A stretch of DNA of 32,692 nucleotides from Clostridiaceae bacterium (GTDB taxonomy: Bacteria; Bacillota; Clostridia; Oscillospirales; Acutalibacteraceae): positions 1 through 32,692 of the forward strand of contig JAEERC010000022.1 in NCBI GenBank assembly GCA_016285645.1. Reading direction: 5' to 3'. Positions within the stretch are counted from its first letter, which is position 1. The number at the start of each line of letters is the position of its first letter. Shown here piece by piece: positions 6,976 to 30,230 of this stretch. The notes beneath the pieces were generated by a model. The model was not told the origin of the DNA, searched no databases, and worked only from the letters and a program-made list of their open reading frames with translations. Both the position numbers and the translations under genes were made by a program.

Positions 6976-8496
6976 TTATTCCTCCGGAGCGGAAAGGGTG
7001 AGTTCCTCTTTGATTTCCTCTTTCATTTTTTCCATATCCGCCTCCTGCGCCGCCTCGCTGTTCGCCTGCCTTACATAGGCGTAAACGGGTTCAAGGCGCT
7101 CCTTGGTGAGCGGATAGCCGAATTTATAGAGCAGGAAGATGAGCGTATATACAACGGCGGGAATGAGTGTGCATACCTTTAATATTCCCTCGCTGACGCC
7201 GGGCTTGTAGCCGATTTTCGCCATCTCCTCGGTGTAGCCGACCATACCGAGCAGGGTGAGTCCGCCGTAGTCCGCGGCAGTCTGACCTAACTTGCGGCAG
7301 AAGGTGTAAACCGCGTAAATCGCGCTCTCGCTCTTTTCGTGGGTCCTGTACTGCTGGTAGTCGATTACATCCGCCACAACAGCCCAGTTCGTGATTGAAA
7401 CGAAGGAGTAGCCGAAGCCGATAATGAACAAAAGAATCATAAACAGCCACGCCTGGTCTCTGCCGGGCTTGATTAAATATGTTAAAATCGCCGCCGCCGC
7501 TGAGAAGAAGGCGCCGACCTGGCAGAGCTCCTTTTTGCCGTATTTCTTGCTGAGTTTCGGCACAAGGAAAATCATAATCGCCACGGGCAGATACTGGGCG
7601 ACCGTGCCGAGAATCGAAAGGCGCGTGTCGCAGAAATAGTTTTTGTAGAGATACTGATTGAGCGATGAGAACTGAAGCTGACCGCTGATGAGAATACCCG
7701 TGAGGGCGAGCACAACAAACGGTCTGCTCTTTATCATGGAGCCGTAGGTCTTTTTCAGGTCAACGTGCGGGTTTGCCTCGGAGGGCACGCGCTCCCTAGT
7801 CGTGGTGTAGCATATAAGGTAAGCCACAGCCGAGAAAACCGCCATAATAATCGCGAATTTGAGCATACCGCTGCCGCTTGCCACATCGTATGTGCCGCCG
7901 TTGCCGTCGTCCATTTTGGTATAGACCACTATCGGCGCGAGAAGCAGGGGAGCCGCTCCGCCCACGCCGCTGCCTATGGCGCGGAAGGTTGAGAGCAGCG
8001 TTCTGCCGTCCGGGTCGTCGGTGATTACCGAGGCGAGCGAGCCGAAGGGCACATTCATACCCGTGTAGAGCATACCGAAGGCGATATAGGTGGCGTACGC
8101 TATGGCGAGGAGTATCGCCTGGCTGTTGGTGAACCTGTCAAACGCCACAAAGCACAGCACTTCGGATATCGCCAGCGGAACGGACACCGTGAGCAGATAG
8201 CGGCGGTATTTGCCGTTTTTGCCGGGCTTTCTCTTTGCGACAATCGCGCCCCAGAGAGGGTCGTTTATCGCGTCCCACAGACGGGTGAAAAGGAAAAGGT
8301 TCGCGACCGTCGGCTTCGCCCTGAGCTTGAGCACGTCGGTCAGGAAAACCTTGAGATATGAGCTGACATAGGTGAGCACGAACATGTTGCCCGCGTCGCC
8401 TATCATGTAGCTTATGCCGTCTTTCAGGCCGATTTTGTTCGGGTGAGGAGCCGCCTGCTCAACGCCCGTCTCGATTTCGGCATCTTTTTTTGCCAA
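6976..8496 (-). CDS. GPH-family sugar:cation symporter (TTG start)
   Basis: A 506-residue integral membrane transporter of the glycoside-pentoside-hexuronide family within the MFS fold, with about 12 hydrophobic segments. Diagnostic parts are the N-terminal GDAGN and FTRLWDAINDPLWG motif (near residues 35-80), which resembles MelB/XynB-type transporters. I place the start at TTG 8496, because AAAGGGG lies 8 nt upstream, while the longer in-frame ATGs lie inside or at the promoter (8531-8559). The C-terminus is charged and cytoplasmic. As first gene of the operon with GH78, isomerase and esterase, it probably imports a rhamnosylated oligosaccharide or glycoside. No ABC transporter or regulator is adjacent. 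Confidence 0.9.
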   Translation of the reverse strand: MAKKDAEIETGVEQAAPHPNKIGLKDGISYMIGDAGNMFVLTYVSSYLKVFLTDVLKLRAKPTVANLFLFTRLWDAINDPLWGAIVAKRKPGKNGKYRRYLLTVSVPLAISEVLCFVAFDRFTNSQAILLAIAYATYIAFGMLYTGMNVPFGSLASVITDDPDGRTLLSTFRAIGSGVGGAAPLLLAPIVVYTKMDDGNGGTYDVASGSGMLKFAIIMAVFSAVAYLICYTTTRERVPSEANPHVDLKKTYGSMIKSRPFVVLALTGILISGQLQFSSLNQYLYKNYFCDTRLSILGTVAQYLPVAIMIFLVPKLSKKYGKKELCQVGAFFSAAAAILTYLIKPGRDQAWLFMILLFIIGFGYSFVSITNWAVVADVIDYQQYRTHEKSESAIYAVYTFCRKLGQTAADYGGLTLLGMVGYTEEMAKIGYKPGVSEGILKVCTLIPAVVYTLIFLLYKFGYPLTKERLEPVYAYVRQANSEAAQEADMEKMKEEIKEELTLSAPEE

Positions 8497-8530
8497 ACCG
8501 GACACCCCTTTGTAATTTATTAACATTATA

Positions 8531-8559
8531 AATATATCATAGAGTCGGAATAAAATCAA
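8531..8559 (-). promoter_or_regulatory. Promoter of the rhamnoside operon
   Basis: TTGATT (8554-8559 on minus) and TATATT (8531-8536) are separated by 17 bp. This fixes transcription start near 8524 and supports the TTG start at 8496. No clear operator palindrome was seen. Confidence 0.7.
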
Positions 8560-8582: not shown

Positions 8583-8633
8583 ACAAAAAATCAAAACCCG
8601 GCGGCTTCTCCTTTTACGGGAAGTCGCCGGGTT
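8583..8633 (-). terminator. Strong terminator ending the phage head operon
   Basis: A 14-bp stem (8595-8608 with 8620-8633, one G-T pair) is followed on the minus strand by TTTGATTTTTTG. It lies 17 bp past the stop of the last neck-position gene, so the head operon ends here and does not run into tail genes. Confidence 0.9.
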
Positions 8634-8649
8634 CTTTTGCGTGGTTCTG

Positions 8650-9465
8650 TTACTTCAAAGCGACATAAAAATAATCGTTTTCGGAGTCGTTGAGGCGGGT
8701 TGTGATACCGCCGGAGGTTGTGTTCGTAACCGAAAAGCCGTCATCCGTGAGCGTCACGCCCGCGGTGCCGAAGCCGTCGCAGGCAAAGCCCGAATACACA
8801 TATCCGCCGTGCACGGCGGGCATGGACTGTGTGCCCACAAAAACCGCTCTCGGCTTGAAGCCGAGGTGAAAGCTCCTGTAGGCGGCGTCCGTGCCGAAAT
8901 ACGAGCCCGTTGCGGTCGGCGCGGTGAGATAAGCCCTCTGCGCGGCGCTTAAGTGTATATCCTCATCGCGGATGTGCGAGCCGCAGAGCAGTTCCTTGTC
9001 CATAAACGAGGGGAAGGGTATGTCGCAGGTGTCGGCGGGGCAGAGGTTCGCCTTTATTTCGGCGTATGCCTTCAGCACAAACGCCTCCGTGTCGCGGTCC
9101 GCCGTGATTCCCTCACAGCCCGATGAGACAATCTCGAGGTCGGTGCCGAAACTCAGAGCGTCGATTACGAGAGTAAACGCGTCGTAACACTCCCCGCCCC
9201 CGAGGGCGAAGGGCGCGTGCACGCCGAAGCGCAATTTAACAAGGGCGTTGCGGCAGTATTCGTCGCGCTCGAGCACCCCCTCGTTGTTCGCGGTGAAGGA
9301 GTCCGATATCCGCACGCTTTCAATGCCCACGCTGACCGTTGTGCGCGAGAGCGGCACGGTTTTGGGGCAGGCGGGATATTCCGTTGTGAATTTTATGCCC
9401 TCAAGCGCCTGAATCTCCGACAGGCACTCAACCACCGCGCCCGGCAGGGCGCTTATTTCGCTCAT
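8650..9465 (-). CDS. Phage structural protein, neck-position N-terminus plus fibre-like C-terminal domain
   Basis: A 271-residue protein with no signal peptide. Residues 1-145 look like a compact alpha/beta domain, and its position third after the capsid gene is where tail-terminator or tail-completion proteins usually lie. Residues about 185-271 form a separate domain with the pattern LGFKPRAVFV ... DDGFSVTN ... DYFYVAL, which resembles beta-rich C-terminal modules of phage tail and fibre proteins that bind surfaces. Combining a neck-position domain with a fibre-like module is unusual. It starts in an ATGA-type overlap with the upstream gene behind a GGAGGATGAGCA site. Last gene of the operon. 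The role is inferred from position and motif only. Confidence 0.65.
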   Translation of the reverse strand: MSEISALPGAVVECLSEIQALEGIKFTTEYPACPKTVPLSRTTVSVGIESVRISDSFTANNEGVLERDEYCRNALVKLRFGVHAPFALGGGECYDAFTLVIDALSFGTDLEIVSSGCEGITADRDTEAFVLKAYAEIKANLCPADTCDIPFPSFMDKELLCGSHIRDEDIHLSAAQRAYLTAPTATGSYFGTDAAYRSFHLGFKPRAVFVGTQSMPAVHGGYVYSGFACDGFGTAGVTLTDDGFSVTNTTSGGITTRLNDSENDYFYVALK

Positions 9466-9803
9466 TGCTCATCCTCCTTCACTATTACGCGGATTACCGC
9501 CCAGATATAGAGCGGCTCATCCCCGAAATAAACCTTTTCGGCGCGGTCGATTCTGTAGTCCGTGCCCGAGCAACGCAGATACTCCCCGTCTCCGAGAGCG
9601 GTTAAATCGCAGGCGGGCGGGCAGATACACAGATAATGCCCCTCGCTGTTGAAGCCCACATCCGTATATACGCCGTCGAGATACATCTTGTTTTTGTAGC
9701 GCAGGGGGCTTATTACCGCACGGTGCGAGGAAACAACCTCACCCTCCGCGTCACGCAGGGTTATATCCCTGCCGACAGCCGAAAGGCTCGCTTCAATGTT
9801 CAT
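9462..9803 (-). CDS. Probable head-completion (stopper-like) protein
   Basis: A 113-residue, mostly beta-strand protein with no recognised motif beyond the late pattern YRIDRAEKVYF, which is reminiscent of small beta-barrel head-closure proteins. It lies second after the capsid gene, the usual place for a stopper that plugs the portal after DNA packaging. It overlaps both neighbours by 4 nt. The assignment rests on gene order and size; a generic phage hypothetical is the alternative. Confidence 0.55.
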   Translation of the reverse strand: MNIEASLSAVGRDITLRDAEGEVVSSHRAVISPLRYKNKMYLDGVYTDVGFNSEGHYLCICPPACDLTALGDGEYLRCSGTDYRIDRAEKVYFGDEPLYIWAVIRVIVKEDEQ

Positions 9804-10168
9804 ATTTTCACCTGCCCGAAATAAAAACTTGTGTCCTTTAAAAGCGGAAGGGCGGCAACGAGTTTAAGGCGGTGTTCCTCTTCCGCAAAGGAGAGCGCTT
9901 TCTGAAAATCGCGTTTTACGGAGACATCGCCCGCTTTGAATTCGGACAAGCCCGCCTCCCCCTGCCCCCGCCTCACGGCGAGGGCTCTTAACACACAGGC
10001 GGCGGCAAGACTTATAAGCCGCGCGTCGTCGGGGTCGGCGTTTTCTCTGACACAGGGCGATATTTCCGAGCAAACGGCTTCGCACAGCGCCGAAAAGTCC
10101 GCGCCCGTGAGCGAAGAATCGCCGTAAACGGCCGTGAAAGCGCTCTCAACCGCCGATGAATCAATCAT
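9800..10168 (-). CDS. Probable head-tail connector (adaptor-like) protein
   Basis: A 122-residue, largely helical protein with no membrane segment, directly after the major capsid gene where gp6/gp15/YqbG-type adaptor proteins occur. Such proteins form a ring beneath the portal. Alternating hydrophobic helices (about 20-80) and the short C-terminal extension fit that class, but I see no diagnostic motif. The gene begins 9 nt after the capsid stop and overlaps the next gene by 4 nt. Confidence 0.55.
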   Translation of the reverse strand: MIDSSAVESAFTAVYGDSSLTGADFSALCEAVCSEISPCVRENADPDDARLISLAAACVLRALAVRRGQGEAGLSEFKAGDVSVKRDFQKALSFAEEEHRLKLVAALPLLKDTSFYFGQVKI

Positions 10169-10177
10169 AAAACCATC

Positions 10178-11182
10178 TCACATTTCAAGAATTTTCGAGG
10201 CGGGGTCGAAGATTTTGGCAAAGCCCGCCGTGCAGGTCACCGCCGCCCTCTCAAGCTGGCGGTCAATGAGTTTGTCGTACTCCGTAACAATGCCGCCGCA
10301 GCGCACCATTTCGAGGGCGCATCCGCGATCAAGACCTATAAGCTTGCCCGAATCGAGGCAGGAGCACTTTATGAGATCCGCTCCGAGGGGAGTGATCATT
10401 TTGCCCGTGGCGTGGAAGTTGAGACCCGCCGCCGCGTCGCGCATCTCCGTCATTTCGAGGATTTTCTGCATAACATCGGGGGCGGCGAGCAGGGTGTTGA
10501 GTTCGTAGGGGTCAAAGCCCGACCAGAACTGCGTAAGATCGCCGTAAACCACGGTGCCGGGCGTCGCGGTGCTTTCGGTTTCGGCGGGGTTTCCGTTGCC
10601 GTCGCCGTTTACAAGCACATTTACCGCGTCCTTTAACTGCGAGCGGGCTATGTAAGCGCCTATCTGCTTTAAAGTGACCGTGAAAAGGTCAAGGCGCTGG
10701 CGGCGCAGCGCCTCGTAGGAGGCGACAAGCATCCTGCCCCTCTTGTGAAGGGTTACGAGATTGCTTTTGAGACTTATTCCCGTCTCGGGAATATACGCGC
10801 CCTCGGCTACATCCCTGAGTTCCTTTTCATCCTCCGAGGGCGAGGATGTGATTGTGCGGTAATCCGCCGAATCAATCACCGTGACCGCCGCCGTGATTTT
10901 CGGCAGAATATCCGCCTGCTCAAGGCCGCTTCTCACGGCTCTCGAGATGTATTCGGGGAAGAGCACGGAAGAATCGCTTGTTTTGAAGAATTTTTCAACC
11001 GTGTCGCTCGAGGGTCCGCTTACCCTGATGTCAAATCGCTTGAGCTGGCGCTCATAGGCGTCAAGTCCCTCAAGCGCCGTGCCCCTGTACTGCTCCGACG
11101 GGTCGATTTTTTCCAGTTCGCCGGTGAGGCTGCCCGTGGAATAAAGCCCTTTTTCAAGATGTATGCTGTCATAAGCCGTCAT
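10178..11182 (-). CDS. Phage major capsid protein (HK97-fold type)
   Basis: A 334-residue protein in the capsid position between the decoration-like protein and the connector. Its layout fits HK97-fold capsid proteins of Clostridia phages: an N-terminal arm (about 1-60), a segment with FPEYISRAVRSGLEQADILPKI (about 75-97) at the arm/E-loop transition, a PETGISLKS stretch typical of the E-loop/P-domain region, and an alanine-rich A-domain. No long N-terminal scaffold (delta) domain is evident, so scaffolding may come from the protease protein or be absent. Start ATG has a strong AAGGAGG site. It would form the icosahedral shell. Confidence 0.82.
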   Translation of the reverse strand: MTAYDSIHLEKGLYSTGSLTGELEKIDPSEQYRGTALEGLDAYERQLKRFDIRVSGPSSDTVEKFFKTSDSSVLFPEYISRAVRSGLEQADILPKITAAVTVIDSADYRTITSSPSEDEKELRDVAEGAYIPETGISLKSNLVTLHKRGRMLVASYEALRRQRLDLFTVTLKQIGAYIARSQLKDAVNVLVNGDGNGNPAETESTATPGTVVYGDLTQFWSGFDPYELNTLLAAPDVMQKILEMTEMRDAAAGLNFHATGKMITPLGADLIKCSCLDSGKLIGLDRGCALEMVRCGGIVTEYDKLIDRQLERAAVTCTAGFAKIFDPASKILEM

Positions 11183-11194
11183 ATTAAATCCTCC

Positions 11195-11536
11195 TTAAAT
11201 CAGAACCGTGATTTTTCCGTTTTCGCCGTCATAGGCGAGCACAAGATATTCCCTGCCGTCGGGGTCCGCGGCGATTCCGCCGTCGCCGTTGGCGAGAAAG
11301 CGGTCAAAATACGATTCGGGAGCGCTGCCCGAATAATCCGCCGTGACCGTGCCGCACACCTGAACCGCGGCAAGCCCGTTCCTGCAGCTTACTGTGAAGC
11401 CCGCCGCAAGGTCACCGCCCTCGCAGGCGGCAACCTCGCCCTGTGCAACGATTTTTACGGGTGTGCCGGGAGTAAGCTCCTCTTCCGTTGTGAAGGTCAG
11501 AACCTTCTCGTTGAATCCTTCAAATGATACAGACAT
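11195..11536 (-). CDS. Capsid decoration-like protein
   Basis: A 113-residue protein; the ATG at 11536 is chosen because AAGGAGG lies just upstream, although the frame stays open further. Its pattern GTPVKIV ... GEVAACEGGDLAAGF ... GLAAVQVCGTV is like the beta-sandwich head-decoration proteins (DUF2190-like) often encoded next to the capsid gene. Such proteins bind outside the shell and stabilise it. The position between protease and capsid fits. The family call is tentative. Confidence 0.6.
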   Translation of the reverse strand: MSVSFEGFNEKVLTFTTEEELTPGTPVKIVAQGEVAACEGGDLAAGFTVSCRNGLAAVQVCGTVTADYSGSAPESYFDRFLANGDGGIAADPDGREYLVLAYDGENGKITVLI

Positions 11537-11546
11537 TTTTTCCTCC

Positions 11547-12422
11547 TTATATCCTGAACTGATTGTTCGCGTCGCTTTGAGCGCCGCTTTTTCTCTCAAA
11601 CTGGGGGCGTGAAATTCCGCCCTCGCCTCTCGCGCGGAGCGATTTATTGAGTCGCTGTATTGCGTCCGCGTCCGCGCGGGCGAGAAGTTCCCTGAAAAAC
11701 GCGCTTTCAATATCCGGGAAAAGTTCACAGCATTTCACAACGCAATCCCTCATAAGCGAAGCGCGGTATTTCTCACCCTGCGAGGCGAGCGACAAAAGTT
11801 CACCGAAACTGCCGCCCTCCCCTTTTTCCGAAAAATCAAAGCTTTTCGTAACGCCCGATGCCTTCTGCGCGGGCACGGCAACAAAAGACCACTCGTAGGC
11901 GTCCGCGGGGGATGCCAGAACCGCGTGGCAGAGTTTTCCGTCATAGAACCTGCCTTTGATGTGGGAACAGCGCCTTATATCCTCGCCGCACACGGAGCAT
12001 ATTTTCTCGTTCACGCTGCAGCCCACGCTCGTCTCCTTGCGTATTCCGCTCTCAATCTCCTCAATGAGATTTCTGTTCTTTTCCGTTTTCGGCATATAAG
12101 CCCTCGCCTTTATGCAGGCGTAGTTTTCGCCCGCGGAGGTGCGCCTGAAAGCGTCCTCGCAGTATGAGCATTCAAATATCCTCGCGCTCTGATCCTTTGC
12201 GCTGCCCGAGTGGTCGAAAATGCCCGTTCTGCCCTCAAACATAGGGGCGAGCGCCTTGAGCGCCTCAGCCGAAAACCGCTCAAAATCGCGGTCGATTTCG
12301 TTGTCGCACAGCACAACTCCGAAGGTATAGACCTCCTCTTCGTTGAGCGGCGACAGGGCGTATCTGTTGATTTTCTCAAGTTCGCCCTCACGCGGGGCGC
12401 CCTTTGATAAGTAATCAGTCAA
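11547..12422 (-). CDS. Prohead maturation protease-like protein (TTG start)
   Basis: A 291-residue protein resembling HK97-type (U35) head maturation proteases, which cut the capsid scaffold during assembly. The likely triad is His71 (IFDHSG), Ser132 (RKETSVG) and Glu177 (YEWSFVAVPA), in the right order and motif context. Just after the Ser is a Cys/His cluster, C142-x2-C145-x6-C152-x-H154, possibly a metal knuckle inserted into the fold. A charged C-terminal region (about 195-290) could be a scaffold-like tail. It starts at TTG within the portal gene's end, behind AAGGAGGG. Confidence 0.75.
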   Translation of the reverse strand: MTDYLSKGAPREGELEKINRYALSPLNEEEVYTFGVVLCDNEIDRDFERFSAEALKALAPMFEGRTGIFDHSGSAKDQSARIFECSYCEDAFRRTSAGENYACIKARAYMPKTEKNRNLIEEIESGIRKETSVGCSVNEKICSVCGEDIRRCSHIKGRFYDGKLCHAVLASPADAYEWSFVAVPAQKASGVTKSFDFSEKGEGGSFGELLSLASQGEKYRASLMRDCVVKCCELFPDIESAFFRELLARADADAIQRLNKSLRARGEGGISRPQFERKSGAQSDANNQFRI

Positions 12423-13560
12423 TTGACATATCCCTCCTTATTTTTTCCGCCTTGGCGCGGTTCAGATCCGCCTGCGAGAGCGCGACTTCGTCCTGCATTG
12501 TTATATCGTCCCAGACGACGGTCAGCCTGTCGTCAAGCCCGCTTCTTCGCAGAAGCAGACGGCAGATTTTTTCAATAACGGGCGTGAGCACGCGGCGGTA
12601 CGCCTCAAGTTCGCTGGTCAGCACATCCGCCTGCTGCTGCGACATTCTCTCGGTTGACGACCAGCTGAGCCCCAGCATAAACGGCGGCAGCCCGGTTTTG
12701 GCCACGATCTGCTCGAGCATCTGCCTTACGGGCACGGCGCTGTCGGGTATGGCGCTGTCCGCTCCTATGACCTTCACGGTCACATCCCCCGCGCACACAA
12801 AATCGCGCACTTCGCCGGGACGCATCGCCTTGCTCCACTCTTCCGCCATCTGCTTCGCCCTCTCGGCGGCGTAGGCGCGGTCGGCGGGGTCGCTGCCGGG
12901 GTTATAGGTGACGGCGAATCTTATATTGCCCGCGCGCTCCCAGTTCATACCTATACTCTCATAGATTTTCATAAGAACCGAGCTTACAAAAGGCATTCCC
13001 TTCAGAAGCGGACTGCCGTACACCGCGCCCGGCTCCGGGTTCAGCACACAGGGCAGGCAGAGTTCGGGGTGTCTCACCTTTTCGGGCAGGGCGCCGTTCA
13101 CAGAGTAAACATCAACCGAAAAGCCGTCCCGCGCCCTTTTAAGTTCAAAACTTCCCGGCTCGGCGAGCATAAGCGCGCAGGGCACGCCGTCACCGTCCGT
13201 GAGTATTTCGCCCACAACCGTGCCGCAGGTCAGAAGCTCCTCGAAAAAGCCCGAAACGAAGGCGAAGAGCCCCGTCTGATTTCCGCCCGCCGGCACCCCG
13301 CGCGAAAAGCGGTCAACGGTTTTCTGCGATTGCGGGCTTTCGCATTCCACATGAAATCCGCCCGTAAGGCGCACAAGCTTGTAAACCGCCGCGTCAATGA
13401 GCGGCACGCTCTCACGCAGTCTGCGGTAAAGTTCGCACCGCGCCCCGCCGGGAGGGTACGCAGGGGCGCTAAATGAATAATCCGTTCCTCTTTCGGGCGA
13501 AAACTGAGCCGCGCCCCGCGGCTTTGTTTCGCTTTCACTTTTTCTTTTTCTCAATCCCAA
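12415..13560 (-). CDS. Phage portal protein (TTG start)
   Basis: A 381-residue protein, on the short side for portals, lying between large terminase and protease as expected. Features include an early helical clip/wing region (PLIDAAVYKLVRLTGG near 50-65), a central segment ILTDGDGVPCALMLAEPGSFEL, and a C-terminal stretch LPPFMLGLSWSSTERMSQQQADVLTSELEAY-type helix typical of SPP1/HK97-like portals. It would form the dodecameric DNA gate at one capsid vertex. Start TTG overlaps the terminase stop and has AAGGAGG 8 nt upstream. Frame intact. Confidence 0.85.
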   Translation of the reverse strand: MGLRKRKSESETKPRGAAQFSPERGTDYSFSAPAYPPGGARCELYRRLRESVPLIDAAVYKLVRLTGGFHVECESPQSQKTVDRFSRGVPAGGNQTGLFAFVSGFFEELLTCGTVVGEILTDGDGVPCALMLAEPGSFELKRARDGFSVDVYSVNGALPEKVRHPELCLPCVLNPEPGAVYGSPLLKGMPFVSSVLMKIYESIGMNWERAGNIRFAVTYNPGSDPADRAYAAERAKQMAEEWSKAMRPGEVRDFVCAGDVTVKVIGADSAIPDSAVPVRQMLEQIVAKTGLPPFMLGLSWSSTERMSQQQADVLTSELEAYRRVLTPVIEKICRLLLRRSGLDDRLTVVWDDITMQDEVALSQADLNRAKAEKIRRDMSID

Positions 13561-14831
13561 TTACCGGTCCTCCTTTTTTCCGCGAGGGCAAAGAATCCGC
13601 CGCCCAGCCCCTCAACGGTCATAACAAAATAGCGCATATCGTCCATGGCGTGGTCGTTCTGCTTTTTAACGGAGTCCCTCCCCGGCGAATCGTCCCAGCG
13701 GTAGAGGGAAAACTCCCTTATGATATCCTTGCAGCGGGGCGAAAAGAAGAGTTTTCCCTCCCTGAGCATATCGCCCGTCTTTCTTATGCCGTCAAGCACA
13801 TCGTTCACGGCGGGCAGAACCCTGAACCTGCCGTGCCGCCTTACGCACTCAATGAAACTCGCGGCGCTCGGGTCAACAATCACCGCCTCTGTTGTCTCGC
13901 CCGCGGCAAGCTCCTCAAGGGCGGCGTAGTGCTCCTCATCCGTGCGCTGAACACCGGTTTGCTTTGAGTCGTAATAGTATTCGCGCAGGCGGTACCATTT
14001 TCCGCCGCATTCGCCCCACAGCCCGAACGAGGAGGGATTGACCGTGCCGTAATCGCAGGAGATTATGCGCCTTGTTATTTCGCCGTCCGGCTCTTTTATA
14101 TGCTTTTCAAGGTCGAACATCGGATAGACGCAGCCGTGCGCCGCCGTCCATTTCCCCTCCACGAAACGCTCGTAAAACGCGCCGCTGTAAAGCTTTTTGT
14201 AGCGGCTGATTATCTCGGGGCTTAAGGACGGGTTGTCATCCATTGTGAAATGAAGATACAGGCAGTTTTTCTCCTTCGCCTTCTTTATCCACTCCTCGTG
14301 GAACCAGTGCCCGGGGTGGTCGGGATTGCAGGAAAACCAGAGACGGCTGCCGTCAACGGAGCACCTCGCTATCGCCTGCTCAACAAAGGAGCGCGGCATA
14401 AGAGCGACCTCGTCGAGCATAACTCCGGTCAGGGTTATGCCCTGTATGAGCGACGCCGAACTCTCGTCTCTGCCGCCGAAAAGATAAAAGGTGTTCTTAT
14501 TGCCGAAAGCGCTGATTTCAACAAGATTTCCCGACCTCTTTTCGCTCACCTTCAGACCGAGCCCGCGCAGCGCCGGAAGTATGGGTGTAACTATGTTGCG
14601 CCGCAGGGACTGAATTGTTTTGCCGCACATCGCGAAGGCGGCGCCGTTGAAATTAAGGGTAGCCCAGACGGCGAAGGATATGCTCATACAGAAGGTTTTT
14701 CCGCTTCGCACCGCGCCGTCGCAGATTATTGCGTCACAATCGCGGTAGGGGCTTTTGTCCATAAACCAGCAGAACACCGTCATCTGTTTTTTTGAAAAAG
14801 GGAGCACGCGCTTACAGGAATCCTCTTTCAT
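13551..14831 (-). CDS. Terminase large subunit, PBSX type
   Basis: A 426-residue DNA-packaging motor with ATPase and nuclease domains. Walker A-like GAVRSGKT is at 39-46, Walker B VMLDE at 137-141, and the coupling motif SCNPDHPGHW at 167-176. The nuclease acidic residues Asp260 (SCDYGT), Asp320 (VIVDPSA) and Asp397/398 (HAMDD) are all present, so both activities look functional. Length matches the family. It overlaps the small subunit by 4 nt (ATGA). The intact catalytic sites are the strongest sign that this operon still packages DNA rather than being debris. Confidence 0.95.
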   Translation of the reverse strand: MKEDSCKRVLPFSKKQMTVFCWFMDKSPYRDCDAIICDGAVRSGKTFCMSISFAVWATLNFNGAAFAMCGKTIQSLRRNIVTPILPALRGLGLKVSEKRSGNLVEISAFGNKNTFYLFGGRDESSASLIQGITLTGVMLDEVALMPRSFVEQAIARCSVDGSRLWFSCNPDHPGHWFHEEWIKKAKEKNCLYLHFTMDDNPSLSPEIISRYKKLYSGAFYERFVEGKWTAAHGCVYPMFDLEKHIKEPDGEITRRIISCDYGTVNPSSFGLWGECGGKWYRLREYYYDSKQTGVQRTDEEHYAALEELAAGETTEAVIVDPSAASFIECVRRHGRFRVLPAVNDVLDGIRKTGDMLREGKLFFSPRCKDIIREFSLYRWDDSPGRDSVKKQNDHAMDDMRYFVMTVEGLGGGFFALAEKRRTGNWD

Positions 14832-15319
14832 ATTTCCGCGCTCTCCCCGTGCGCGTACATCAGGTTTTCCGCTCCCTCGCCGAGTGCCCTGAGCAGCGCC
14901 GAACCGCAGGCGCCGCCGTTCTGAACGGAATTCTCCAGCTTTTCAAGCGCCTTCAGGCGGTCAAAAAATTTAATCTCCATCCCTCCGCTTTTCGGCAGTT
15001 TGATTTCGGAAATGTTGAAAAGGTCAAGTGCCTCAATTTCATCCGCGCCCGTCTGCTCGAACGAGCGCAGGAGTTTTACGCAGTCCGATATGCCGCCGAA
15101 GGCGAGGCGGCGGTAGCCCGCGGCAACCTCATCCGGGAGGGCGGGTCTCTGCGCCGAGCAATTCTTTATCCCCTCGCGTATGTCCTCCCTCGCGAGAAGG
15201 CGAAACCCGGTGATTCCCGGGGCGGCGTAACCCGCGGCCGCGGCGGAAAACCGCGGATCTCCCGTGCGCGCGTACTGCGCGCAGAAAAGCCGCTCTTTTT
15301 TGTTCAGTTCCTTCTTCAT
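14828..15319 (-). CDS. Terminase small subunit
   Basis: A 163-residue DNA-recognition subunit. The N-terminal block KKERLFCAQYARTGDPRFSA...AGY (about 5-32) matches the helix-turn-helix of Terminase_2 family small subunits. The rest is helical, fitting the oligomeric ring. The ATG at 15319 is preferred because AAAGGAG lies 5 nt upstream; a longer frame to 15361 would run into the palindromic promoter region. First gene of the head operon. If it has kept site-specific recognition it would package specific DNA; if relaxed, random host DNA as in gene transfer agents. Confidence 0.85.
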   Translation of the reverse strand: MKKELNKKERLFCAQYARTGDPRFSAAAAGYAAPGITGFRLLAREDIREGIKNCSAQRPALPDEVAAGYRRLAFGGISDCVKLLRSFEQTGADEIEALDLFNISEIKLPKSGGMEIKFFDRLKALEKLENSVQNGGACGSALLRALGEGAENLMYAHGESAEI

Positions 15320-15342
15320 CTTTTCTCCTTTCTTCCCGACCG

Positions 15343-15386
15343 TATGTGAAAGTACTTTCAACCATAGTCAAAACAGGGGTGTTTTG
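15343..15386 (-). promoter_or_regulatory. Control region of the head operon with two palindromes
   Basis: A perfect 14-bp palindrome TGAAAGTACTTTCA (15347-15360) lies 27 bp upstream of the small terminase ATG. A second inverted repeat CAAAACA-GGGG-TGTTTTG occupies 15369-15386. A minus-strand TTGACT (15366-15371) overlaps the second repeat, but 17 bp on there is only CACATA, a poor -10. The layout suggests operators plus a need for an activator or alternative sigma factor. This is inferred from symmetry and spacing only. Confidence 0.5.
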
Positions 15387-15551: not shown

Positions 15552-16451
15552 ATGAAAAAGATTTTAGCGTTACTTCTTGTCGCGGGTCTGCTGTTCACAC
15601 TCTGCGCCTGCGGAAACAAAACAGAAGAGCCGACCACAACGGAAATAGTTGAACAGTCAGCAACCGAAACCGCCACAGAGGCGGCAGGAACAGACGAATC
15701 CACATCGGCCGCTCCCGCGGAATCCACCTCGGCTGCCCCCGGTGAATCCACCACAGCCGCTCCCGATGCCACAACAGAGGCGGCAAGCGAAACCACAACA
15801 GAAGCGGCGGCAAAGAAGCCCGAAACAAAAGAAGAAATTGTTGAATACTTCAACAAGGCATCAAACAATATCAAAACAAGCGCCAAGAGCGTTACCCGCA
15901 ACTATTCAAAAATCAGCCTCGCGGGCAGCACTCAGCTTCCCGGCTGGGTAAACACCGTTGCGAGAGTTGTCGGCGGCGCCGATAAATTCATCGATGACCA
16001 GCTCTCCAAGAACAGCAAGGGCTCCGAGACCTTTACCGGCTCACAGATAAAGAGCACCTACCCCGTTGAGGGCGAATCCTACGCCTCAAAACTCACTCCG
16101 GCTGACGTTCAGAGCGCCACCTGCACAGAGGAAAACGGCAAATACACAATCACAATCGTCACCGTAAGAGACGCAACATCACAGAACGCGAAGCACGGCG
16201 CAGGCCACGCTCCCAAGGCGTTCAACACTCCCCTTCCCGACGTTATCAACGAAAACGTTCCCGGCTTTGCAAAGAATATGATCGGCGGAACAGCCGCTAT
16301 GGAATATCCCTCAAGCACATTCAAGATTGTTGTTGACGCGAAGACAGGCAACGTTGAATCCGCAACTTCGGATCTCTACTGGACCATCCACTTCGGCTCC
16401 GACACCACTCTTCCCTTCCGCACCCAGGATTCCTGGACCATCAAATACTGA
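15552..16451 (+). CDS. Lipoprotein of unknown function with Thr/Glu/Ala-rich linker
   Basis: A 299-residue lipoprotein. The signal peptide ends in the lipobox LCAC with lipidated Cys near residue 20. Residues about 25-95 are a low-complexity stalk rich in Thr, Glu, Ala, Ser and Pro with repeated ESTSAAP units, which would hold the folded domain away from the membrane. Residues about 100-299 form one globular domain of unknown family. GAGGAAG precedes the ATG. PduL follows 19 nt later on the same strand, but a shared function is not evident. Cell-surface location is secure; role unknown. Confidence 0.85.
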   Translation: MKKILALLLVAGLLFTLCACGNKTEEPTTTEIVEQSATETATEAAGTDESTSAAPAESTSAAPGESTTAAPDATTEAASETTTEAAAKKPETKEEIVEYFNKASNNIKTSAKSVTRNYSKISLAGSTQLPGWVNTVARVVGGADKFIDDQLSKNSKGSETFTGSQIKSTYPVEGESYASKLTPADVQSATCTEENGKYTITIVTVRDATSQNAKHGAGHAPKAFNTPLPDVINENVPGFAKNMIGGTAAMEYPSSTFKIVVDAKTGNVESATSDLYWTIHFGSDTTLPFRTQDSWTIKY

Positions 16452-16470
16452 GTTCCGAGGTAGAATATAA

Positions 16471-17049
16471 ATGAAAAAAGAAGTACTTATTGAAACCTCG
16501 GCGCGTCATGTACATGTAACAAGAGAAGCGCTCGACACCCTCTTCGGCGAGGGCTACGAGCTTACAAAAAAGAAAGATCTCTCCCAGCCCGGCCAGTTCG
16601 CCTGCGAGGAGAGAGTCGCGGTAATCGGCCCCAAGGGTCAGTTCCCCGCCGTTTCGATTTTAGGTCCCATCCGCCCCGCCAGCCAGGTTGAACTCTCGCT
16701 CACCGACGCGCGTTCAATCGGCGTTACCGCTCCCGTTCGCGAAAGCGGCGACATCGAGGGCTCGGGCGCCTGCAAACTTGTGGGCCCCAAGGGTGAAGTC
16801 GAACTTGAATGCGGCGTTATTGCCGCGAAAAGGCACATCCACGCCACCCCCGCCGACGCGGAAAAATACGGTCTCAAGGACAAGCAGATTGTCAAGGTTA
16901 AGATTGATTCCGCAGGCGGACGCTCGCTCATATTCGACGATGTTGTTGTAAGAGTAAGCGAAAAATTCGCTCTCGCCATGCACATTGACACCGACGAATC
17001 CAACGCCGCTGTTCCCGCTCCCGGCGCGATGGGCGAAATCCTCGACTGA
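16471..17049 (+). CDS. pduL: Phosphate propanoyltransferase-type phosphotransacylase (PduL)
   Basis: A 192-residue PduL-family enzyme that interconverts acyl-CoA and acyl phosphate. Two zinc-binding HxH motifs are clear: His13/His15 (ARHVHVT) and His122/His124 (KRHIHAT), with a further likely ligand His171 (MHIDTDE). The N-terminus starts directly at the enzyme fold with no microcompartment encapsulation peptide. No shell, CoA-aldehyde dehydrogenase or acetate kinase gene is nearby, so it probably works free in the cytosol in acetate formation, in place of Pta. It is followed by a strong terminator. Confidence 0.93.
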   Translation: MKKEVLIETSARHVHVTREALDTLFGEGYELTKKKDLSQPGQFACEERVAVIGPKGQFPAVSILGPIRPASQVELSLTDARSIGVTAPVRESGDIEGSGACKLVGPKGEVELECGVIAAKRHIHATPADAEKYGLKDKQIVKVKIDSAGGRSLIFDDVVVRVSEKFALAMHIDTDESNAAVPAPGAMGEILD

Positions 17050-30175: not shown

Positions 30176-30230
30176 GGCAACAACCTCCTTTTGTTTAATG
30201 AGTAATGAGTGATGAGTAATGAGCAATTAA

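Follow-up and report, generated by a model that had tools for sequence, protein, structure and literature searches.

A 32,692-nucleotide stretch of DNA from a Clostridiaceae bacterium, referred to here as the window, probably carries a domesticated, vertically inherited particle locus resembling a gene transfer agent (GTA), in which a lost tail has been replaced by one fusion protein. Related loci indicate that many rumen and gut Clostridia pass on a virus-like gene set that could build a tailless, DNA-filled shell.

A nine-gene head operon among host genes

Between positions 8650 and 15319, on the minus strand, lie nine open genes for the terminases, portal, a protease-like protein, a decoration-like protein, the capsid and three neck proteins. 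The initial annotation was right that all nine are intact; its description of them as overlapping applies to five of the eight junctions (4–10 bases), the other three being spaced by 9–12 bases. The small terminase subunit, TerS (163 amino acids; 14828..15319), matched PF03592 (E = 2.4e-9), and its start is most likely the ATG at 15319, behind AGGAGA, although the longest open reading frame extends to 15361. It is followed by the large terminase, TerL (426 amino acids; 13551..14831; PF03237, and TIGR01547 with E = 5e-55), the portal (381 amino acids; 12415..13560; phrog_30703, E = 4e-116) and P4 (291 amino acids; 11547..12422). P4 matched phrog_16951 (E = 2e-89), which PHROGs lists as conserved and of unknown function, and which we label prohead-protease-like from its motif. 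P5 (113 amino acids; 11195..11536) is a likely capsid decoration protein that matched phrog_4588, 'virion structural protein' (E = 5.5e-21); its start at 11536 was taken from its translation, the longest open reading frame starting elsewhere. The major capsid protein (334 amino acids; 10178..11182) matched phrog_3922 (E = 2.6e-92). The neck proteins n1 (122 amino acids; 9800..10168) and n2 (113 amino acids; 9462..9803) occupy the positions of an adaptor and a stopper, roles that we presume from position, and tblastn recovered relatives of n1 in 65 and of n2 in 75 of 81 loci, the window counted. The operon closes with n3 (271 amino acids; 8650..9465), and none of n1, n2 and n3 had a Pfam or PHROGs match or a meaningful NCBIfam match.

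The catalytic residues that the initial annotation had reported as kept are conserved well beyond the window. The Walker A lysine of TerL was present in 128 of 129 loci (the remaining one has a gap), and the Walker B Asp/Glu and nuclease aspartates 260, 320 and 397 were each present in 129 of 129. In P4, which also keeps a CxxC motif, His71, Ser132 and Glu177 were each found in all 87 sequences that passed the coverage filter, from 129 loci in all. The retention of the ATPase and nuclease residues of TerL suggests that DNA packaging is under selection.

Downstream, an intrinsic terminator (8595..8633, minus strand) with a 16-pair stem and a T run is followed by an MFS sugar transporter gene (6976..8559, minus strand), as expected from the earlier description of a strong terminator and then host genes. 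Upstream lie x299, which had no Pfam match, and a phosphate propanoyltransferase gene (15552..17049, plus strand); the same pair adjoins the operon in L032, L033 and L136. In searches that reached to position 30226, all Pfam-matched flanking genes belong to host metabolism or transport, and several flanking open reading frames were unmatched. Pfam searches of 20 flanking proteins returned host genes or nothing, and no integrase; we also found no tRNA gene in the window and no lysis or regulatory gene next to the operon.

A terminator–fibre fusion at the end of the operon

Tail terminators are usually hexamers. In n3, such a neck protein appears to have been joined to a tip from a tail fibre that is otherwise lost, as judged by profile comparisons, an AF2 model and Foldseek. 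Residues 1–142 (9040..9465, minus strand) have a tail-terminator fold: hhalign aligned them with stand-alone terminators at 99.9%, and Foldseek matched them to the phiTE connector and the pyocin R2 collar (E < 0.001) and to lambda gpU (2e-3). Residues 160–271 (8653..8988, minus strand) comprise a fibre shoulder motif and a beta-rich tip, and matched the separate fibre of tailed relatives (hhalign 99.9%, E = 2.6e-32). The tip resembles viral tail fibres by fold and weakly matched Gp15 in PDB 6r5w, and no PDB entry matched its model at E ≤ 0.001. It is also the fastest-evolving section of n3: its dN/dS is 0.27, with many of the tip dS values near saturation, and that of the neck part is 0.07. 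Searches of 37 genomes of the genus found n3 at full length in 29 of the 29 that bear the capsid. The earlier view that the operon stops at the neck with three neck proteins has to be amended for the ninth gene, which ends in a fused fibre tip.

To place this fusion among its relatives, we used a tree of TerL, portal and capsid from 129 distinct loci carrying all three genes (151 before duplicates were removed), with the root placed by choice on L194/L270. By form, 50 of these loci were fused, 37 were tailed and 14 had a terminator only; 4 had part of a tail, another 3 were probably tailed, neither element was recognised in 2, and 19 were untyped because the contig ends early. The named loci, 80 in all, are the best of 171 found with the window capsid, so that the counts of forms are not frequencies. 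As rooted, the tree placed tailed forms at the base. One clade (support 0.93) contained 48 fused loci and 5 cut at contig ends, with the fused loci L074 and L087 falling outside it, so either the fusion arose twice or the tree is imperfect. In basal loci, the terminator gene is followed by tube-like, hub, spike-like, wedge, baseplate-J and fibre genes, where the tube and spike labels are assumed from position and the hub label comes from weak profile matches. In the clade of the window, the block from tube-like to fibre gene is absent and the last gene is the n3 fusion. By this comparison of gene orders, the window operon is a shortened version of a longer operon, which is widespread and keeps baseplate and fibre genes. 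The head and packaging genes of the window operon are intact, chromosomal and phage-derived, and no integrase or replication genes were found in the locus, with 20 flanking proteins searched in Pfam.

Inheritance and selection

Most of the loci come from metagenome-assembled genomes. The capsid gene was found in 35 of 45 genomes of the window's genus and in 71 of 394 drawn from the order, and it gave a single match per genome in the 48 genomes bearing one among 99 searched (the match in G088 is weak and partial). At least 4 of the 10 genus genomes without a capsid retain scars of the operon, indicating that the locus is dispensable; in some of the 10, its absence may reflect incomplete assembly. 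Capsid and rpoB trees agreed closely (Mantel r = 0.93 across 24 genomes, a value that none of 9,999 permutations reached; 30 genomes were chosen, 25 had rpoB and one with a split rpoB was left out), and within the genus r reached 0.96 for 20 genomes. Median dN/dS ranged from 0.054 for the capsid to 0.224 for P5, using 33–45 close pairs per gene (the closest 45 of 69 pairs, dS 0.05–2; the pairs are non-independent). These values lie far below 1, which bears out the proposal of selection for a capsid without a local tail. Judged from these trees and rates, the locus is inherited vertically, is held by purifying selection and does not look like a remnant.

Window-form homologues with read flanks did not lie inside complete prophages, their annotated flanks being host genes. 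The idea that the operon keeps the same chromosomal place was borne out within clades and failed across all relatives. Where the upstream sequence was long enough, MgtE adjoined 20 of 45 fused and 2 of 29 tailed loci, and it was therefore rejected as a universal neighbour; the tailed loci L137 and L151, of the same family, adjoin the same MgtE gene as the 20 fused loci. At a conserved place, L203–L206 are decayed copies of which only the operon ends are left.

Capsid genes of the operon type also occur alone. Nine viral or phage-like contigs, five of them near-identical, carry a lone copy, and each of these capsids is without 9–24 residues, all at one same place. At least two independent captures, and probably three, would account for their positions in the tree, where L116 is firmly separate (support 0.96) and the placement of L255 is weak (0.38). 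These trimmed capsids may be anti-GTA decoys. Short capsid pieces in G453, considered as peptides, were rejected because their placement at contig ends marks them as assembly breaks. In viral sequence collections, many fragments of such operons are filed as viruses.

Candidate functions and known systems

In the reading that we favour, the cell would make a head that is small and icosahedral, which terminase and portal would load with host DNA and the neck proteins would seal once filled. At the portal vertex, a ring of n3 would present its adhesin tips, about six in number and fast-evolving, by which the particle would adhere to related cells. The competence machinery of the recipient would import the particle DNA, so that no tail would be needed; uptake of RcGTA DNA depends on competence, according to PMC7296036 and PMC10883770. 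The window genome (G000) encodes ComEC, as do all 20 genomes searched, G000 included, and ComEC is only permissive, since tailed-form genomes have it too, as do 10 of 14 controls. The joint account, of a working GTA without any tail, a fusion that made the neck ring an adhesin, competence-based uptake, stepwise reduction readable in living relatives (from a full baseplate to a hub alone, a terminator alone and the terminator–fibre fusion) and decoy capsids, all without the same loop, with which phages of these bacteria would fight the GTA, is tentative, and we rate it somewhat short of even.

Few lineages are known to have GTAs, and in RcGTA, the model, a tail serves to deliver the DNA. CcGTA, like RcGTA from Alphaproteobacteria, has long-inherited head genes and a small particle. 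PBSX of Bacillus subtilis is a domesticated phage-like particle of a Gram-positive bacterium, with killing activity and a complete contractile tail; the window TerL matches the NCBIfam 'PBSX family' model, whereas the window locus is without a tail. RcGTA shares long-inherited head genes and a small particle with the window locus but possesses a tail that includes a tape measure and a baseplate (PMC7296036, PMC10883770), and no such genes were found for the window locus. The initial annotation had concluded that the locus fits neither GTAs nor capsid-forming satellites. That no longer stands, because the operon is, on our comparison, a reduced form of a longer one and, by description, closely resembles FpGTA of Faecalibacterium prausnitzii, a GTA-like element without a visible tail (PMC12946183). 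Both belong to gut Clostridia of the same broad group; in both, genes for TerS, TerL, portal and capsid make up a head operon on the chromosome, and neither has replication genes. FpGTA forms particles of ~40 nm with no identifiable tails and ~9 kb of DNA. Five of 12 strains have a second FpGTA operon, which encodes baseplate, fibre, receptor-binding protein, holin and endolysin; searches of G000 for Baseplate_J, tape measure, hub and the PF05105 holin found no such locus, so we do not file the window locus as FpGTA itself. The terminator–fibre fusion is a feature of the window that the available part of PMC12946183 does not describe for FpGTA. Among the open-licence PMC titles listed, that article was the only one to describe GTAs in these families, which does not prove absence from print.

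The shell might instead do another job and transfer no genes, for example by killing neighbours, disposing of or storing DNA, or acting in defence or as a decoy. Apart from the presumed adhesin the locus has no delivery device, and the FpGTA authors leave a PBSX-like, non-transferring role open (PMC12946183). We nevertheless consider this unlikely, given the retained ATPase and nuclease residues of TerL and a tip that evolves like a surface-recognition domain.

A further alternative is that the head uses a tail from a second, highly diverged operon elsewhere in the genome, as FpGTA II serves FpGTA I; the two lie ~125 kb apart in one strain (PMC12946183). Our genome-wide searches covered three tail families or profiles, and G000 is 97.9% complete in 73 contigs. 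The search for tail genes elsewhere that the initial annotation had proposed found none in G000 (hub, Baseplate_J and tape measure), nor was the PF05105 holin found. None of the 32 genomes in the tail-less set had the hub (G364, G382, G388, G412, G441 and G041 were placed in this set by genus, and G048 and G057 have incomplete loci), whereas 4 of 4 tailed controls were positive. Of 42 genus genomes examined for Baseplate_J, G029 alone had it (E = 8e-8) and is itself without a capsid. The Baseplate_J of the fused-type genome G047 was rejected as the operon's tail, because its contig also carries a tape-measure gene ~4 kb away and it is probably part of a prophage. Six of the 32 tail-less-set genomes (G019, G041, G047, G364, G388 and G412) have tape-measure genes, which presumably sit in prophages. 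FpGTA locus II was undetected in 7 of 12 strains (PMC12946183). With a fibre tip already on the neck, where a tail would dock, we regard a second-operon tail as quite improbable.

Satellites of the cf-PICI type are mobile elements with an integrase, regulators and their own head and packaging genes; having no tail genes, they borrow their tails. The window locus shares the head and packaging genes without a tail, and capsid relatives occur on viral contigs, but it is vertically inherited and single-copy with no integrase among its 20 flanking proteins, and the PF10145 tape measure was absent from 18 of 20 own-genus genomes tested; a capsid-forming satellite using helper-phage tails is therefore very improbable. 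A decaying prophage remnant, intact by chance, would account for the missing tail genes and for the scars in four genus genomes and is barely credible, as the genes are open across many genera at median dN/dS of 0.05–0.22, with catalytic residues kept, n3 full length in every capsid-bearing genome among the 37 of the genus searched and frequent frameshifts not seen.

If the favoured reading of a vertically inherited, tail-free, GTA-like particle in gut and rumen Clostridia is true, adhesion and competence can replace injection. Such a particle would be an unusually stripped-down route of sharing DNA and could help to explain DNA exchange among these bacteria. Its relatives offer a natural series of intermediates for the taming of a virus, and the lone trimmed capsids, if they are decoys, would be to our knowledge the first sign of an arms race between phages and GTAs.

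An inherited and selected head operon

The GTA-like head operon consists of nine open genes on the minus strand, running from TerS (15319) through TerL, portal, P4, P5, capsid and the neck-position genes n1 and n2 to n3 (8650), with a 16-pair terminator stem downstream of n3 (8595-8633). Operon neighbours with a Pfam match are host genes. The motor and nuclease residues of TerL are kept in 128-129 of 129 loci; a further position, 398, is Asp in 126 and Glu in 3. The protease residues picked out in the initial annotation (His71, Ser132 and Glu177) held in every P4 sequence left after coverage filtering (87 of 87); P4 is labelled protease-like by motif, and PHROGs gives it no function.

We found a single capsid match per genome in 48 of 99 genomes searched, including G088, where the match is weak, partial and without an operon. 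Capsid is present in 35/45 genomes of the window's own genus and in 71/394 genomes drawn from the order: 35 of the 43 from its own family, the others from families f14 (20) and f26 (12) and elsewhere (4). Two of these 71 have two matches; in G370 the second is a lone capsid within a phage-like stretch (L255), and in G453 both are contig-end pieces. We compared the capsid tree with that of rpoB (requested for 30 genomes, present in 25, used for 24), which gave a Mantel r of 0.93, a value not reached in any of 9,999 permutations, and 0.96 for 20 genomes within the genus. Median dN/dS among close pairs was low throughout: TerS 0.13, TerL 0.07, portal 0.09, P4 0.12, P5 0.22, capsid 0.05, n1 0.13, n2 0.12 and n3 0.16. 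Among 37 genus genomes searched for n3, 29 have it at full length, and these are the ones carrying capsid; four have a tip piece alone and four nothing. We see none of the outcomes that would count against the initially suggested selection for capsid formation, namely complete prophages, frameshifts or dN/dS near 1. Sequence comparison argues that the operon is inherited and selected.

The four capsid-less genomes with a tip piece (G007, G027, G034 and G009) carry deletion scars. The TerS start is fused in frame to the n3 tip in G009 (L206) and, by eye, likewise in G007 (L203), the two pieces overlap in G027 (L204), and in G034 (L205) a contig end truncates the scar. Downstream lie gene families c41 and c48, plus c39 in three of four, as in the intact fused loci L100, L102 and L110. 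L203 and L206 have different break points, so repeated deletion of the operon from this place is probable.

Tailed relatives and the missing tail block

The head operon had been described as lacking a local tail, and tail genes sought elsewhere in the same genome (97.9% complete) were likewise not found, whether hub, Baseplate_J or tape measure (PF10145). The hub profile matched none of the 32 genomes of the tail-less set, this one included, and one copy in each of 4/4 tailed controls. Baseplate_J occurs in 1/42 genus genomes (G029; E 8e-8, over the cut-off), which has no capsid. PF10145 is absent from 18 of 20 own-genus genomes and present in 6/32 of the whole tail-less set, where it presumably belongs to prophages. 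A tail of a kind outside these three profiles is possible.

Per-gene profiles run on 182 stretches, the window included, revealed several operon forms. In the tailed form, the terminator gene is followed by tube-like, LysM, hub-like, small spike-like, gp25-like, Baseplate_J (PF04865, E 7e-51), Mu gp48-like and fibre genes; in the tailed examples L111, L118, L124, L137 and L151, neither a sheath gene nor one of tape-measure size was seen. In a second form the terminator gene stands alone, and in a third (L268, L194 and L270) a hub-like gene ends the tail. In the window form, terminator and fibre tip share a single reading frame. In a phylogeny built on TerL, portal and capsid (129 distinct loci, rooted by choice on L194/L270), tailed loci are basal and one clade (support 0.93) holds 48 fused loci and five cut by contig ends; fused loci L074 and L087 sit outside it. 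By this topology the tail block was probably lost, once in the main fused clade. A divergent MgtE gene adjoins 20 fused loci and the tailed L137 (G046) and L151 (G053), which come from other genera of the family; this common neighbour fits loss in place.

The third-form loci, all from family f26 (L268 in G431, L194 in G090, L270 in G318), have head, neck and hub-like gene followed by unrelated genes, and their genomes have no Baseplate_J; this could be the layout of FpGTA I. By eye, TerS of tailed L124 (3726-4199) has a Cys-rich stretch in place of the N-terminal stretch conserved in the window TerS, possibly reflecting loss of site-specific packaging.

The n3 fusion

Residues 1-142 of n3 align with terminators that exist as separate proteins (hhalign 99.9%, E 1.3e-33) and were modelled as a phage terminator/collar fold (mean pLDDT 80, pTM 0.47) resembling the phiTE connector (E 5e-5) and pyocin R2 collar (2e-4) and, more weakly, lambda gpU (2e-3) and the SaPI1 neck (3e-3). 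The remainder, residues 160-271, corresponds to the fibre that tailed relatives encode as a gene of its own (99.9%, E 2.6e-32). This region starts with an H-x-x-D-x-x-x-H shoulder motif, and the shoulder weakly matches Gp15 (PDB 6r5w, E 0.014), with which Listeria phage PSA binds its receptor. The tip modelled alone (pLDDT 91) had no match at E <= 0.001 among PDB solved structures; among predicted viral proteins its best match was unnamed (E 4.8e-4), followed by named tail fibres (2.6e-3 and 2.9e-3). Between close pairs, identity and dN/dS were 88% and 0.07 for the neck part (53 pairs), 69% and 0.17 for the linker (35 pairs) and 54% and 0.27 for the tip (52 pairs). Tip divergence has the pattern of a surface-recognition domain, with net purifying selection persisting. 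A second short tip match lies away from the operon in G013 (C8:40599-40718, within L298; E 3.4e-4).

Proposed working and lone phage capsids

PMC12946183 reports that Faecalibacterium strain ATCC 27766 makes FpGTA particles of 40 nm that contain ~9 kb of DNA and in which no tail could be identified. It also describes a second operon, found in five strains and undetected in seven, that encodes baseplate, fibre, receptor-binding protein, holin and endolysin. By that description our locus looks like a GTA-like element of this kind, but has no such second operon as far as tested. PF05105 holin was not found in the window's genome.

The sequences show which genes are present, that selection acts on them and that n3 is a fusion. 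In the mechanism we propose, the operon proteins would assemble a head, TerL would package host DNA into it, n1, n2 and an n3 ring would close it, n3 tips would give adhesion, and competence proteins would take up the released DNA. For RcGTA, PMC7296036 and PMC10883770 report import of delivered DNA by competence proteins. ComEC is present in 20/20 genomes tested, the window's included, and in 10/14 controls. T2SSF, the ComGB family, is present in 15/20, among them all 11 of the window's genus, and in 13/14 controls. As both are frequent in controls too, their presence only permits the uptake model.

The operon also lies on many viral-collection contigs (IMG/VR and GenBank 'Bacteriophage sp.'; L112-L115, L117-L126, L128, L307-L379 and L180-L182). 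L180 and the chromosomal locus L081 have flanking gene families in common, and records of this kind may therefore have been wrongly labelled as viruses.

A lone capsid gene of the operon family lies on nine viral or phage-like contigs, the longest 104 kb: L116 (10001-10981), L255 (9871-10800) and L300-L306, of which L300-L304 are 98-100% alike and L300 is the contig of L127. In the stretches analysed no other operon gene was recognised, except a P4 relative in L116's own head cluster. The three annotated contexts (L116, L255 and L127) include genes for phage-type helicase, methyltransferase, RNA ligase and the like. In the capsid tree, L116 falls with an operon capsid (support 0.96), L300-L306 make up a single clade (1.0) and the placement of L255 is weak (0.38), which argues for at least two, and probably three, independent captures. 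Within capsid positions 113-140, probably the E-loop of the HK97 fold, each of the nine is missing 9, 10 or 24 residues; the 129 operon capsids are missing at most 4 in this stretch. That one region has been trimmed repeatedly suggests the hypothesis that these capsids are decoys spoiling GTA assembly. If true, this would mean that the GTA is expressed and of consequence to phages.
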